A stretch of DNA of 48,138 bases from Gammaproteobacteria bacterium (lineage in GTDB: Bacteria > Pseudomonadota > Gammaproteobacteria > Thiohalobacterales > Thiohalobacteraceae), in the NCBI GenBank assembly GCA_016218375.1, contig JACREG010000053.1, forward strand, positions 1-48,138, read 5' to 3'. Under the pieces are notes generated by a model. It was not told where the DNA came from, did no database searches, and saw only the letters and a program-made list of their open reading frames with translations. The position numbers and the translations under genes were made by a program. Positions 1,669 through 42,597 of the stretch are shown here, one piece after another (position 1 is the first letter of the stretch; each line of letters begins with the position of its first letter).

Positions 1669-2976
1669 ATGTCTATGTGTCTGAACCGCCAAGACGCCAA
1701 GCAGGACTTTTTGGAACCGCCAAGGCGCCAAGACGCCAAGTTTTTTTTACTTAAAAACGATTTTCTTGGCGCCTTGGCGCCTTGGCGGTTCGTTCTGGTG
1801 TGTCTTGGTGTCTTGGCGGTTTTCAGGTCTGGGCGGTTCCACGTCGTGTTCCTGGCTGCATTGCTCACCGCCTGCGCCGCCACGCCGCTACGCGGTACCG
1901 GCGATCTGGGCGTAGTGATCGAACGTGCCTCGGGCAGTGTGTTGATCGTCGATACCACGCACATGAGCACGCTGGCGCGCGTGCAAGGTCTGGGCGATCT
2001 GTCGCATGCTTCGCTGGTGTATTCGCGCGACGAGCGTTATGCCTATGTATTCGGCCGCGACGGCGGACTGACCAAGATCGACATCCTCACCGCGCGCATC
2101 GTCAAGCGCATCGTCCAATCCGGCAACAGCATCGGTGGCGCCATTTCCCAGGACGGCAAACTCATTGCCGTCTCCAATTACGAACCCGGTGGCGTGAAGG
2201 TGTTCGACGCCGAGACGTTGGAACAGGTCGCCGATATTCCCACTGGCGTAAAAGTCGTCGGGCTCGCCGACGCGCCGGGCCAGCGTTTCGTCTTCAGTTT
2301 GTTCGAGAGCGGCGCCATCTGGATCGCGGATTTCAGCGCGGGTCGAACACCTGAACTGACCAAGTTCGACCACATCGGCCGCGAACCCTACGACGGTTTG
2401 GTGTTCGGCGACGGACGTTATTATCTGGCCGGCCTGTTCGGCGAGAACGGCCTGACGGAACTCGATCTCTGGCATCCCGAGGCCGGCGCGCGCCGTGTAC
2501 TGCCGGAGTATGGCAAGGGCGAACAAAAACTGCCGGTGTTCAAGATGCCGCATCTGCAAGGCTGGTCGCTGGCCGGCGACCCTATCTTTGTCCCCGCCGT
2601 GGGTCTGCACGAAGTCTTGGCGATCGAGCGCGGCACCTGGAAGCAAATCGCGCGCATCCCCGTGCATAGCCAACCGGTGTTCGTGATCGGTCGCCCCGAT
2701 GCGCGCCAAGTGTGGGTGAACTTCGCCCATCCGGACAACGACACCGTGCAAGTGATCGACGTCGACACGCTCAAGGTCGTCGATACCTTCAAACCCGGCA
2801 AGGCCGTGCTGCATTTGGAATTCACCCCGCGCGGCGAGGCGGTGTGGATTTCGCTGCGCGACGAAGACCGCATCGACATCTACGACACCGCGACCCTCAA
2901 GCGCCTCGGCACACTGCCGGCGGAAAAGCCCAGCGGCATCTTCTTCACTCACCGCGCGCATCGGATTGGCTTGTGA
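1669..2976 (+). CDS. nirF: Heme d1 biosynthesis protein NirF with repeat-derived N-terminus
   Basis: The body (from about residue 75) is a NirF beta-propeller: periplasmic, d1-heme related, required for heme d1 formation. It contains repeated blade strands such as VLIVDTTHMSTLARV, TKIDILTARIVKRI and VQVIDVDTLKVVDTF. A lipobox LLTAC places the mature Cys at residue 69, so it is likely an outer- or inner-membrane lipoprotein. The ATG at 1669 has a GGAG five bases upstream, yet residues 6-50 are the translation of a hairpin repeat (NRQDAK...FLGALAPWRFV). A GTG at 1798 would give a normal-length lipoprotein signal (26 residues to the Cys) but lacks a good ribosome site. Either the long leader is translated or initiation moved; the sequence alone does not decide. 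The end overlaps the possible GTG start of nirD. Confidence 0.85.
   Translation: MSMCLNRQDAKQDFLEPPRRQDAKFFLLKNDFLGALAPWRFVLVCLGVLAVFRSGRFHVVFLAALLTACAATPLRGTGDLGVVIERASGSVLIVDTTHMSTLARVQGLGDLSHASLVYSRDERYAYVFGRDGGLTKIDILTARIVKRIVQSGNSIGGAISQDGKLIAVSNYEPGGVKVFDAETLEQVADIPTGVKVVGLADAPGQRFVFSLFESGAIWIADFSAGRTPELTKFDHIGREPYDGLVFGDGRYYLAGLFGENGLTELDLWHPEAGARRVLPEYGKGEQKLPVFKMPHLQGWSLAGDPIFVPAVGLHEVLAIERGTWKQIARIPVHSQPVFVIGRPDARQVWVNFAHPDNDTVQVIDVDTLKVVDTFKPGKAVLHLEFTPRGEAVWISLRDEDRIDIYDTATLKRLGTLPAEKPSGIFFTHRAHRIGL
1684..1822. repeat. Hairpin repeat element, copy 1 (nirC/nirF)
   Basis: Left-arm units AACCGCCAAGACGCCAAG at 1684-1701 and 1715-1740 are followed by a T-rich, then A-rich loop and a right arm at 1765-1790 (CTTGGCGCCTTGGCGCC...), plus a decayed right-arm unit to 1822. 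The 26-base arms 1715-1740 and 1765-1790 pair almost completely. The element lies wholly within the open frame of nirF and keeps it open. Relatives of this repeat occur at 4999 and 6379. Confidence 0.9.
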
Positions 2977-4990: not shown

Positions 4991-4998
4991 AATCCTTG

Positions 4999-5135
4999 AA
5001 CCGCCAAGACGCCAAGGGTGCCAAGAAAGATGTTTGAACCGCTAAGGCGCCAAGTTTTTTCAATAAAAAGGATTTTCTTGGCGTCTTGGCGCCTTGGCGG
5101 TTCAAACAGGTTTTCTCTTCGCGTCTTGGCGGTTC
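4999..5135. repeat. Hairpin repeat element, copy 2 (nirH/nirJ)
   Basis: Left units at 4999 and 5037-5054 (AACCGCTAAGGCGCCAAG), a T/A-rich loop, right arm 5077-5102 (CTTGGCGTCTTGGCGCC...) and an extra right unit ending at 5135. It is intergenic here, unlike copies 1 and 3, and fills almost all of the nirH-nirJ gap. Confidence 0.9.
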
Positions 5136-5164: not shown

Positions 5165-6367
5165 ATGTTCCGGATCACGCAATACCTGCAAGCGTTGGCC
5201 AACGATACGCCGCTCGGGCCGAAGCGCACGCCGCCCGGGCCGGTGGTGATCTGGAATCTGATCCGGCGCTGTAATCTCGCTTGCAAACACTGTTACTCGA
5301 TTTCCGCCGATCATAATTTTCCCGGCGAGCTGAGCACCGACGAAATCTATACGGTGATGGACGACCTCAAGGCCTTCGGTGTGCCGGTGTTGATTCTGTC
5401 CGGCGGCGAGCCGCTGTTGCGACCGGATATCTATGCCATCTCGAAACGCGCCAAGGCCATGGGTTTCTATGTCGGCCTGTCGACCAACGGCACGCTGATC
5501 GACGAGAACAACATCGCGCAGATCGCCGAGGTCGGTTACGACTACGTTGGCATCAGCATCGACGGCTTGCGCGATACGCACGATAAATTCCGCCGCCTCG
5601 ACGGCGCCTTCGATGCCTCCATGCACGGCATTCGCCTGTGCCAGCAGCACGGCATCAAAGTCGGGCTGCGCTTCACGATCACCCAGGACAACGCTGCGGA
5701 ACTGCCGGCGATGCTGGATCTCATGGAGGAGATGGACATCGACAAGTTCTATCTCTCGCATCTCAACTATGCCGGCCGCGGCAATCGCAACCGCAAAGAC
5801 GATGTCGTGCATCAGATGACCCGCAACGCCATGGACCTGCTGTTCGAGCGCTGCTGGGCCGGTATCCAGGACGGCAAAGCGCGCGAGTTCGTCACCGGCA
5901 ACAACGATGCCGACGGCGTGTATCTGCTGTACTGGGTGCAAAAACATTTCCCGGAGAAAGTCGCGGCGATGCGCGCGCGGCTGGCGCAATGGGGCGGCAA
6001 CGCCTCGGGCCTGTGGATTTCCAACATCGACAACCTCGGCAACGTACACCCCGATACTTTCTGGTGGGACTACACCCTGGGCAACGTGCGCGAACGGCCG
6101 TTCTCGCACATCTGGCCGGATACATCAGACCCGCTCATGGCCGGTTTCAAACACCAGCCGCGCCCGGTGAAAGGCCGCTGCGGCGCATGCCAATATCTGG
6201 ATATCTGCGGCGGCAACACCCGCGTGCGCGCCTGGTCGCTCACCGGCGATCCCTGGCAGGAAGACCCCGCGTGTTATCTGTCCGACGAGGAAATCGGCGT
6301 GAGCGGTGAACATGAACGCCTGCATGTCACACCGTATCGACGGACCATCCGCATAAAACAGGCCTGA
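5165..6367 (+). CDS. nirJ: Radical SAM enzyme NirJ, heme d1 biosynthesis
   Basis: 400 residues. The N-terminal radical SAM motif RRCNLACKHCYS has Cys36, Cys40 and Cys43 binding the 4Fe-4S cluster; SGGEPLLRPDI follows as the SAM-binding GGE segment. The C-terminal SPASM-like region has GRCGACQYLDICGG and a later Cys (about residues 339-370) for a second cluster. NirJ replaces propionate side chains of didecarboxysiroheme by oxo groups in the cytoplasm. A strong ribosome site (AGGAG) lies eight bases before ATG, directly after the repeat. It is in operon order with nirN but parted from it by another repeat copy. Confidence 0.93.
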   Translation: MFRITQYLQALANDTPLGPKRTPPGPVVIWNLIRRCNLACKHCYSISADHNFPGELSTDEIYTVMDDLKAFGVPVLILSGGEPLLRPDIYAISKRAKAMGFYVGLSTNGTLIDENNIAQIAEVGYDYVGISIDGLRDTHDKFRRLDGAFDASMHGIRLCQQHGIKVGLRFTITQDNAAELPAMLDLMEEMDIDKFYLSHLNYAGRGNRNRKDDVVHQMTRNAMDLLFERCWAGIQDGKAREFVTGNNDADGVYLLYWVQKHFPEKVAAMRARLAQWGGNASGLWISNIDNLGNVHPDTFWWDYTLGNVRERPFSHIWPDTSDPLMAGFKHQPRPVKGRCGACQYLDICGGNTRVRAWSLTGDPWQEDPACYLSDEEIGVSGEHERLHVTPYRRTIRIKQA

Positions 6368-6375
6368 CAATAAAT

Positions 6376-8070
6376 ATGAACCGCCAAGACGCCAAAAAGA
6401 ATTGTGGAACCGCCAAGGCGCCAAGACGCCAAGAAGGATTAGGAAACCGCCAAGGCGCCAAGACGCCAAGATTTTTTACTGAAAACGATTTTCTTGGCGC
6501 CTTGGCGTCTTGGCGGTTCGTAACGGCTTTTCTCGGTGTCATGGCGATTCATCAAACAGCCTTTGCAGCACAAGATGCCCCGAAGGTCGATGCACGCAAG
6601 CTCTACACCCAACACTGCGCCGAATGCCACGGCCCGGCGCGTCTCGGTGCGATGGGTCCGGCGTTGTTGCCGGACAATCTCGGGCGCTTGAAAGAAGGCG
6701 AGGCGGCGGCGGTTATCGCCAACGGTCGGCCGTCGACGCAGATGCCGGCGTTTGCCGCCAAGCTCAAGCCGGAAGACATCGCCGCGCTCGCCCAGTATGT
6801 GTTCACCGAACCCGCCGTCGTACCGCAATGGACGTTGGACGACATCAACGCGAGTCACATCGTTGCACATCCCGAGGGCAGTCTGCCGGACACACCGAGC
6901 TTCAAGGCCGACATGCAGAACCTGTTCATCGTCGTCGAGGTGGGCGACCATCATGCGACAGTGTTGGACGGCGACAGCTTCGAGCCGATCCACCGCTTCG
7001 CCACCCGCTTCGCCTTGCACGGAGGACCGAAGTATTCGCCGAGCGGACGTTATGTGTACTTCGGCTCGCGCGACGGCTGGGTCAGCAAGTTCGACATCTA
7101 CAATCTGAAGACCGTCGCCGAGATTCGCGCCGGCATCAACACGCGCAATATCGCCGTGTCGCACGACGGCCGCTATGTGATGGTCGGCAATTATCTGCCG
7201 AATACACTCGTGCTGCTGGATGCACGCAACCTAGATCCCATCAAAGTGATTCCGGTACAGGACGATCACGGCAAGACTTCGCGCGTCAGCGCTGTGTATA
7301 CCGCGCCGCCGCGTTCGAGTTTCGTCGTTGCGCTGAAGGATCTGCCCGAGGTGTGGGAGATCAACTACTCGGACAATCCCGAGCCGGTGTTCCGCGGCAT
7401 GGTGCATGACTATCAATACATGGAAGGGCTTGCCGAAAAAGGCCTGTTCCCGATCCGGCACATCAAGCTCAACGATTACCTCGACGATTTCTTTTTCGAT
7501 CCAAGCTACACGCACCTGATGGGCGCGGCGCGCGACGGCAAGAAAGGCCAAGTGGTCAACATGACCGTGGGCCGCAAAATCGCCGACCTCGACCTCGACG
7601 GCATGCCGCATCTTGGTTCCGGCATCACCTTCGACTACAAAGGCCATCGCGTGCTGGCCACGCCGCACTTGAAGAAGGCCGAAGTCAGCGTGATCGACCT
7701 GACCGACTGGAAGACCATCAAGCGCATCAAGACCGACGGCCCCGGCTTCTTCATGCGCAGCCACGAGAACTCGCCCTATGCCTGGGTCGACGCCTTCTTC
7801 GGCCCGAGCAAAGACACCGTACACGTCATCGACAAACGCACCCTGGAGATCGTCAAAACCCTGCGCCCCGCGCCCGGCAAAACCGCCGCGCACATCGAGT
7901 TCACCCAGGATGGCAAATACGCGCTCTTGAGCATCTGGGACATGGACGGCGCCGTCATCGTCTACGACGCCAACACCCTGCAAGAGATCAAACGCATTCC
8001 GATGAAGAAACCGTCGGGCAAGTACAACGTCTGGAACAAGACGCATTATTCGGAGGGGACGAGTCACTGA
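6376..8070 (+). CDS. nirN: NirN, cytochrome c / d1-type propeller protein, repeat-derived N-terminus
   Basis: A NirS paralogue: a heme c domain with CAECH (Cys81, Cys84, His85 in this frame) and STQMPAF as probable axial Met, then a d1-binding propeller ending KPSGKYNVWNKTHYSEGTSH. NirN is periplasmic and completes heme d1 (dihydro-heme d1 dehydrogenase) and hands it to NirS. Residues 2-50 are the translation of a hairpin repeat. ATG 6376 lacks a clear ribosome site. ATG 6541 leaves only MAIHQTAFA, too short for export; a TTG at 6502 inside the repeat would give a good signal peptide (MASWRFVTAFLGVMAIHQTAFA). The true start is therefore uncertain. Its last 164 bases recur at 10754-10917. Confidence 0.85.
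   Translation: MNRQDAKKNCGTAKAPRRQEGLGNRQGAKTPRFFTENDFLGALASWRFVTAFLGVMAIHQTAFAAQDAPKVDARKLYTQHCAECHGPARLGAMGPALLPDNLGRLKEGEAAAVIANGRPSTQMPAFAAKLKPEDIAALAQYVFTEPAVVPQWTLDDINASHIVAHPEGSLPDTPSFKADMQNLFIVVEVGDHHATVLDGDSFEPIHRFATRFALHGGPKYSPSGRYVYFGSRDGWVSKFDIYNLKTVAEIRAGINTRNIAVSHDGRYVMVGNYLPNTLVLLDARNLDPIKVIPVQDDHGKTSRVSAVYTAPPRSSFVVALKDLPEVWEINYSDNPEPVFRGMVHDYQYMEGLAEKGLFPIRHIKLNDYLDDFFFDPSYTHLMGAARDGKKGQVVNMTVGRKIADLDLDGMPHLGSGITFDYKGHRVLATPHLKKAEVSVIDLTDWKTIKRIKTDGPGFFMRSHENSPYAWVDAFFGPSKDTVHVIDKRTLEIVKTLRPAPGKTAAHIEFTQDGKYALLSIWDMDGAVIVYDANTLQEIKRIPMKKPSGKYNVWNKTHYSEGTSH
6379..6518. repeat. Hairpin repeat element, copy 3 (nirJ/nirN)
   Basis: Three left-arm units (from 6379, from about 6410, and 6445-6470) and one right arm 6493-6518. 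Arms 6445-6470 and 6493-6518 pair over 26 bases with two mismatches (G-U capable in RNA). The whole element is read in frame at the 5' end of nirN. Copies 1 and 3 code for nearly the same peptide, DFLGALA(P/S)WRFV. Confidence 0.9.
7907..8070 (+). repeat. 164-bp direct repeat, copy 1 (3' end of nirN)
   Basis: Identical to 10754-10917 except for three base changes (at 7911, within GCGCTCTTG, and within CCGTCGGGC), with no gap. Similarity stops immediately after the shared TGA, which marks one edge of the 2.7-kb insertion. Confidence 0.92.
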
Positions 8071-10715: not shown

Positions 10716-10749
10716 GATCAGCGGGAATATGTGGTCTGCCCCCGGATTC
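10716..10749 (+). repeat. 34-bp direct repeat, copy 2
   Basis: Same as 9748-9781 with one T/C change (GTGGTCTG for GTGGCCTG). Its last three bases (TTC) are also the first codon of the duplicated nirN segment, so repeat and duplication abut. Confidence 0.9.
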
Positions 10750-10753
10750 CCCG

Positions 10754-10917
10754 AGGACGGCAAATACGCGCTATTGAGCATCTGGGACATGGACGGCGCC
10801 GTCATCGTCTACGACGCCAACACCCTGCAAGAGATCAAACGCATTCCGATGAAGAAACCGTCAGGCAAGTACAACGTCTGGAACAAGACGCATTATTCGG
10901 AGGGGACGAGTCACTGA
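10754..10917 (+). pseudogene. nirN: Duplicated 3' end of nirN
   Basis: Codes the last 53 residues of NirN (DGKYALLSIWDMDGAVIV through EGTSH) and shares its stop codon. It has three mismatches to 7907-8070. Two more codons to the left (TTC CCC GAG against TTC ACC CAG) are still related, so homology may begin at 10747. It has no start region or signal peptide and cannot make a functional protein. Its left edge touches the 34-bp repeat; its right edge probably preserves the original downstream flank of nirN. Confidence 0.9.
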
Positions 10918-42457: not shown

Positions 42458-42466
42458 GTATGCCTC

Positions 42467-42492
42467 TAATCTCCGCACATCCTGCGGAGATA
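42467..42492 (-). promoter_or_regulatory. Operator-like palindrome 1 before fic
   Basis: ATCTCCGCA-CATCC-TGCGGAGAT: a near-perfect palindrome ten bases before the fic ATG, in the leader or core promoter. Confidence 0.7.
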
Positions 42493-42520
42493 GTGGCTCA
42501 GATGCGCCGCTAGGGCAAGA

Positions 42521-42547
42521 TAATCTCCGCAGGATGTGCGGAGATTA
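42521..42547 (-). promoter_or_regulatory. Operator-like palindrome 2 before fic
   Basis: AATCTCCGCA-GGATG-TGCGGAGATT: the same site as palindrome 1 in opposite orientation (the centre CATCC is inverted to GGATG). The two centres are about 54-55 bases apart, five helical turns, as for co-bound regulators. Confidence 0.72.
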
Positions 42548-42597
42548 GCCGGCCTAAGCTCCGCAGGCGTTATTCTTGAAGGGGTTTTGTCGCCGCG

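Follow-up and report, generated by a model that had tools for sequence, protein, structure and literature searches.

A multicopy palindromic element lies a few codons behind the apparent native start of nirF, and we consider it probable, from sequence comparison, that it is read through from ATG 1669 into the leader of the NirF lipoprotein. The window (the whole 48,138-nt stretch analyzed, from a 2.79-Mb draft assembly of 198 contigs, 86% complete) carries a heme d1 operon in which the end of a cytochrome cd1 gene is followed by nirE, nirC, nirF, nirD, nirL, nirG, nirH, nirJ, and nirN, with the letters within the nirD/L/G/H set assigned by gene order. Assignment of nirF was based on a match to the Cytochrom_D1 beta-propeller (PF02239, 6.5e-110) spanning residues 76 to 429 and on its operon context, as nirE, nirC, nirD/L/G/H, nirJ, and nirN lie alongside and relatives have the identical order. 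Its lipobox, LLTAC, predicts a lipoprotein form; NirF is a membrane-anchored lipoprotein in P. aeruginosa and soluble in Paracoccus pantotrophus (PMC3694632). The features discussed below, all on the forward strand, are as follows.

1286 to 1666, forward: nirC-like cytochrome c gene, the 5′ neighbor of nirF (Cytochrome_CBB3, 7.6e-13; stop TAG at 1664-1666)
1660 to 1663, forward: GGAG, a Shine-Dalgarno-like site for ATG 1669 (from the sequence; anti-SD duplex of -6.3 kcal/mol)
1669 to 1671, forward: ATG, inferred native and favored present nirF start, adjoining the nirC stop as in repeat-free relatives
1669 to 2976, forward: nirF open frame of 435 codons, with a 68-codon leader, the lipoprotein Cys, and the Cytochrom_D1 propeller (PF02239)
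1683 to 1839, forward: palindromic element GAACCGCCAAG...CTTGGCGGTT...GGGCGGTTC in the nirF leader, 157 nt (from arm pairing, family pattern, and fold)
1684 to 1701 and 1804 to 1821, forward: outer arms of the nirF element (from arm pairing)
1714 to 1740, forward: inner left arm, pairing with 1765-1791 (26 of 27 positions complementary)
1765 to 1791, forward: inner right arm, pairing with 1714-1740 and reading LGALAPWRF in the nirF frame
1774 to 1815, forward: alternative in-frame starts within the hairpin (TTG 1774, GTG 1798, TTG 1813; from the sequence)
1840 to 1875, forward: remaining end of the native signal peptide, HVVFLAALLTAC, with the lipobox (from the sequence and comparison with relatives)
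4998 to 5135, forward: second element copy (from the arm pattern), between nirH and nirJ, the latter with a normal start at 5165
6378 to 6519, forward: third element copy, apparently read through to form the nirN N-terminus (ORF 6376-8070), its right arm entering the signal peptide

The arms of the element consist of ~8-nt units, GAACCGCCAAG-GCGCCAAG-ACGCCAAG, together with their reverse complement, and a degenerate additional right unit extends the nirF copy to position 1839. Three copies of this palindrome occur inside 5 kb of the window. Searching the draft genome with the arm pattern yielded 44 forward and 45 reverse sites, corresponding to ~20 elements, and the reversed control pattern gave 0 and 1 matches in the same genome. 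When folded as RNA, the nirF element region reaches -124 kcal/mol (z = -7.9). The palindrome therefore exceeds chance by its fold, by the size of its family, and by comparison with the single match of the reversed control. A known structured RNA was considered and rejected, as Rfam returned nothing above its gathering score in the window and only sub-threshold hairpin matches. Within the library searched, literature searches using the arm sequence retrieved no described repeat carrying it. The exact ends of the nirF element are uncertain, its 157 nt being no multiple of three, as 159 nt would be. An exact empty site was sought and discarded, since cutting 157 nt breaks the frame and cutting 159 nt yields MSMCLVVFLAALLTAC. 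Two other repeats were observed in the window. A 171-nt direct repeat, 97% identical, links the 3′ end of nirN (7900-8070) to 10747-10917, 2.8 kb downstream, and this duplication surrounds a region with few good genes. At 42466-42548, two 26-bp arms form a perfect inverted repeat, CTAATCTCCGCACATCCTGCGGAGAT, around a 31-nt spacer.

The initial annotation had placed a good ribosome site and ATG ahead of the repeat and the lipobox 69 codons further on. Both observations hold: GGAG and ATG 1669 come just after the nirC stop, and the lipoprotein Cys is codon 69 (1873-1875) in a frame open for 435 codons to position 2976. The frame from ATG 1669 crosses the entire element and then the lipobox without a break and continues into the Cytochrom_D1 domain. 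The repeat-derived stretch is free of stops, as had been noted, though at about 52 codons (1683-1839) it is longer than the 45 first given. An open frame through an element is weak evidence by itself. Counting all six frames, 38 of 102 element frames (37%) are fully open in this genome. Here and below, element counts are drawn from extracted genome stretches and, for a congeneric genome (G002), from the matches listed. Openness as proof of selection was accordingly rejected, 24 to 37% of element frames being open.

Comparison with relatives placed the native start upstream of the element. In three repeat-free genomes of the same family (G003, G006, and G007), the nirF start adjoins the nirC stop and the leader has 17 to 26 codons; for repeat-free relatives in general, the leader has about 17 to 27 codons. 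The distance from the element to the Cys codon in the window is just 33 nt (11 codons), and the only starts in this interval are GTG 1846 and TTG 1861, which lie 9 and 4 codons ahead of Cys and were judged unusable; the native nirF start must thus have been upstream of the element, where ATG 1669 is suitably placed. These two results bear out the earlier suggestion that the insertion occurred just behind a native start codon. Relatives were also checked for a nirF that has a ribosome site of its own and starts well after the equivalent of position 1822, and none was found.

Different repeats occupy the same position in other members of the family. In G002, which belongs to the same genus and whose NirF is 83% identical, a palindrome of another type (AACCACRAAGGACACRAAG / AACCACRAAGG) lies at the same nirC/nirF junction; the frame upstream of it has a stop, and nirF must therefore start in or near its loop (MSAYPHKNMFTLCPSCPLWLILLTALLIGC). 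Furthermore, two genomes of a sister genus, G004 and G008, carry a third repeat type, CCGTCATTCCGGCGCAGGCCGGAATCCAG..., in frame within the nirF leader. This repeat contains no in-frame ATG, GTG, or TTG, and none behind it is usable, so that translation of nirF in these genomes must, barring rarer start codons, begin at an upstream ATG and continue through the repeat. G010, of the same genus as G004 and G008, has nirF without a repeat and with the frame kept, its leader being 24 codons shorter. Across 93 surveyed nirF loci, a strong leader palindrome was present in only four, all within one family (this window, G002, G004, and G008), with scores of 21 to 24 versus at most 12 elsewhere. The nirF leader of another genome, G001, was discarded, its contig ending within nirF.

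A similar arrangement was found at nirN, where the right arm of a palindrome enters the signal peptide in this genome (G000), G001, and G002, ending in each case 48 to 49 nt before the same protein point. The loop is common to G001 and G002 and includes a probable start, ATGTTTTCACAA, and nirN of these two genomes probably starts there. Between G001 and G002, six of 27 positions differ on each side of the palindrome, all of them compensated and within signal-peptide-coding sequence (window 6378-6519; L131, L132), and the arms are fully complementary inside each genome (28/28 and 27/27, respectively). These compensated changes could stem from template switching, from a copy taken from another element, or from selection acting on the hairpin; two sequences are too few to distinguish these. 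In G004, G008, and G010, a further repeat type reaches the nirN leader, and GTG starts behind the repeat could serve there.

Most elements nevertheless stay out of genes. For the 100 elements listed from G000 and G002, the genes that start alongside an element number 97, with the first ATG at a median of ~30 nt, indicating that elements normally remain outside coding sequence. To this placement nirF is a clear exception in both G000 and G002, as is nirN on inspection, which fits ancestral genes whose start codons nearly touched the preceding stop. For at least 12 of the 19 G000 element sites, the orthologous G002 junction is also occupied by an element (loci L003-L018, L131, L143-L212), and four of these shared sites, nirF and nirN included, differ in element type (CCGCCAAG versus ACCACRAAGG). 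Loops are shared at several orthologous sites, suggesting that the elements there are old and changing. At nirH/nirJ (window 4998-5135; L131 6440-6680), the G002 element appears nested in the remnants of another palindrome (GAACCACCA...TGGTGGTTC). Similarly built palindromes of different sequence (CGCGCAAAGGCGCGAAG) were also observed at the nirG-nirH, nirH-nirJ, and nirJ-nirN junctions of G024, from another family of the class (L141).

The start codon that nirF uses at present was then weighed among ATG 1669 and the other in-frame candidates, ATG 1675, TTG 1711, TTG 1774, GTG 1798, and TTG 1813. Among them, the best usable ribosome site, rated fair, is that of ATG 1669, probably the start in use, while a start inside the right arm appears to be the less likely option, though a serious one. 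Under the latter, the element would have inserted as proposed and NirF would begin at TTG 1813, GTG 1798, or TTG 1774 with a signal of conventional length, the ATG 1669 frame being open by chance. We regard this complete scenario as rather unlikely. Initiation at TTG 1813 would produce the most ordinary signal for a lipoprotein, with the canonical length of 20 residues before Cys (MAVFRSGRFHVVFLAALLTA-C), the 37% openness of element frames makes a fortuitous open frame plausible, and starts in an element loop have parallels in G002 nirF and, probably, in nirN of G001 and G002. However, the three codons lie within the stem, with a mean accessibility of 0.20 to 0.32, TTG and GTG are poor starts, their anti-SD duplexes are weak or badly spaced, and a good ribosome site has been kept at ATG 1669 beside the nirC stop. 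The initial annotation had opposed a long leader to a weak GTG 1798 after the hairpin. The long leader is the favored side of that choice; GTG 1798 actually falls after the inner right arm and before the outer one and has no advantage over TTG 1813 or TTG 1774, all three being inside the hairpin. The choice is also less sharp than it looks, as repeat-derived residues are part of the NirF leader whichever viable start serves.

Read-through from ATG 1669 has its own costs, since the leader contains two hydrophobic stretches that could confuse topology and the hairpin stem starts 14 nt after the A of the start codon, where it may hinder initiation. The stable hairpin at this distance could also mean that the element inactivated nirF or left it poorly expressed, the open frame being a passing state. 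This is highly improbable given that the frame of the mature protein is undisrupted, conserved at 83% identity with G002 across 372 residues, and of coding type in its codon use, and that sister species retain an intact nirF behind insertions of their own. An assembly misjoin driven by the repeat is less credible still: the repeat is multicopy and the assembly fragmented, but relatives share the gene order nirE-C-F-D-L-G-H-J-N, and the separately assembled G002 has elements at orthologous junctions.

Under the favored reading, in which nirF is translated from ATG 1669 through the element, a multicopy palindromic repeat would have settled in the tight nirC/nirF junction, and the frame would have stayed, or been restored, open through it into the old signal-peptide core. 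The predicted pre-NirF leader would then extend over 68 residues ahead of the lipidated Cys, compared with about 17 to 26 otherwise, about 52 of its codons being repeat DNA. Its lipobox end would still direct export and lipidation, and the leader would be removed at Cys69. The element may have been tolerated owing to its stop-free arms and its landing in a loosely constrained part of the protein sequence, and it presumably confers no benefit. In the families examined, arms are stop-free in nearly all frames, the left arm being hydrophilic and often basic and the right arm more hydrophobic. This polarity arises because the right arm reverse-complements such codons; it is not necessarily adaptive, yet it is the order of a signal peptide. 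A bolder proposal, which we put forward with considerable doubt, is that palindromes act as ready-made signal peptides, so that NirF and NirN have had their export signals renewed time and again by element turnover and arm rewriting instead of by ordinary codon-by-codon selection; elements would then serve as donors of export signals.

These loci provide a natural series at one gene start, with no repeat, one repeat, or two other, unrelated repeats. The series makes it testable how an operon whose genes abut can withstand an insertion at one of its start codons, and whether a palindromic repeat can provide a working signal peptide. It also carries a warning for annotation, as a conserved enzyme may in truth begin with a spurious-looking repeat peptide such as NRQDAK....

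With respect to known systems, the element shares short palindromes, inverted pairs, and a mostly intergenic location with REP/REPIN sequences, but its ends are GAACC...GGTTC, with CGTC/GACG only as part of the arms. The GTAG tag is absent from the three window copies, and no element arms were found beside Y1_Tnp genes at four loci (L223-L226, a set without the second G000 locus). A REPIN/RAYT system was rejected on the lack of a GTAG/CGTC end tag and of element arms at the Y1_Tnp loci examined. Coding palindromes and template-switch correction offer another parallel, as the reports concerned describe palindromes that may be coding and whose arm complementarity can be kept by templated mutation; the cases described there are mitochondrial, yeast, and RNA genes, whereas those found here concern bacterial signal peptides (PMC6649704, PMC8604942, PMC8794818). 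Rickettsia palindromic elements (RPE) are numerous 100-150 bp palindromes that occur in frame in conserved protein genes and are translated (PMC2229807). The present element likewise is a multicopy palindrome within the size range of about 100 to 250 nt taken for RPE-like elements, and in nirF and nirN its open frame is fused to a conserved gene. The likeness is one of description. Unlike RPE, this family is mainly intergenic, its in-frame cases are N-termini of exported proteins, and the element type turns over at one spot. In Yersinia, a hydrophobic frame of the RU-2/YPAL repeat partly forms the predicted signal peptide of the YPO1552 fusion (PMC2229807). YPO1552 is a putative new protein, whereas here the conserved enzymes NirF and NirN carry the repeat, and the repeats differ by lineage. 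A repeat-written export signal is thus unusual, yet has precedents in Rickettsia and Yersinia; what is new here is that conserved enzymes are affected, that one site is reused by unrelated repeats, and that a sister genus shows forced read-through.
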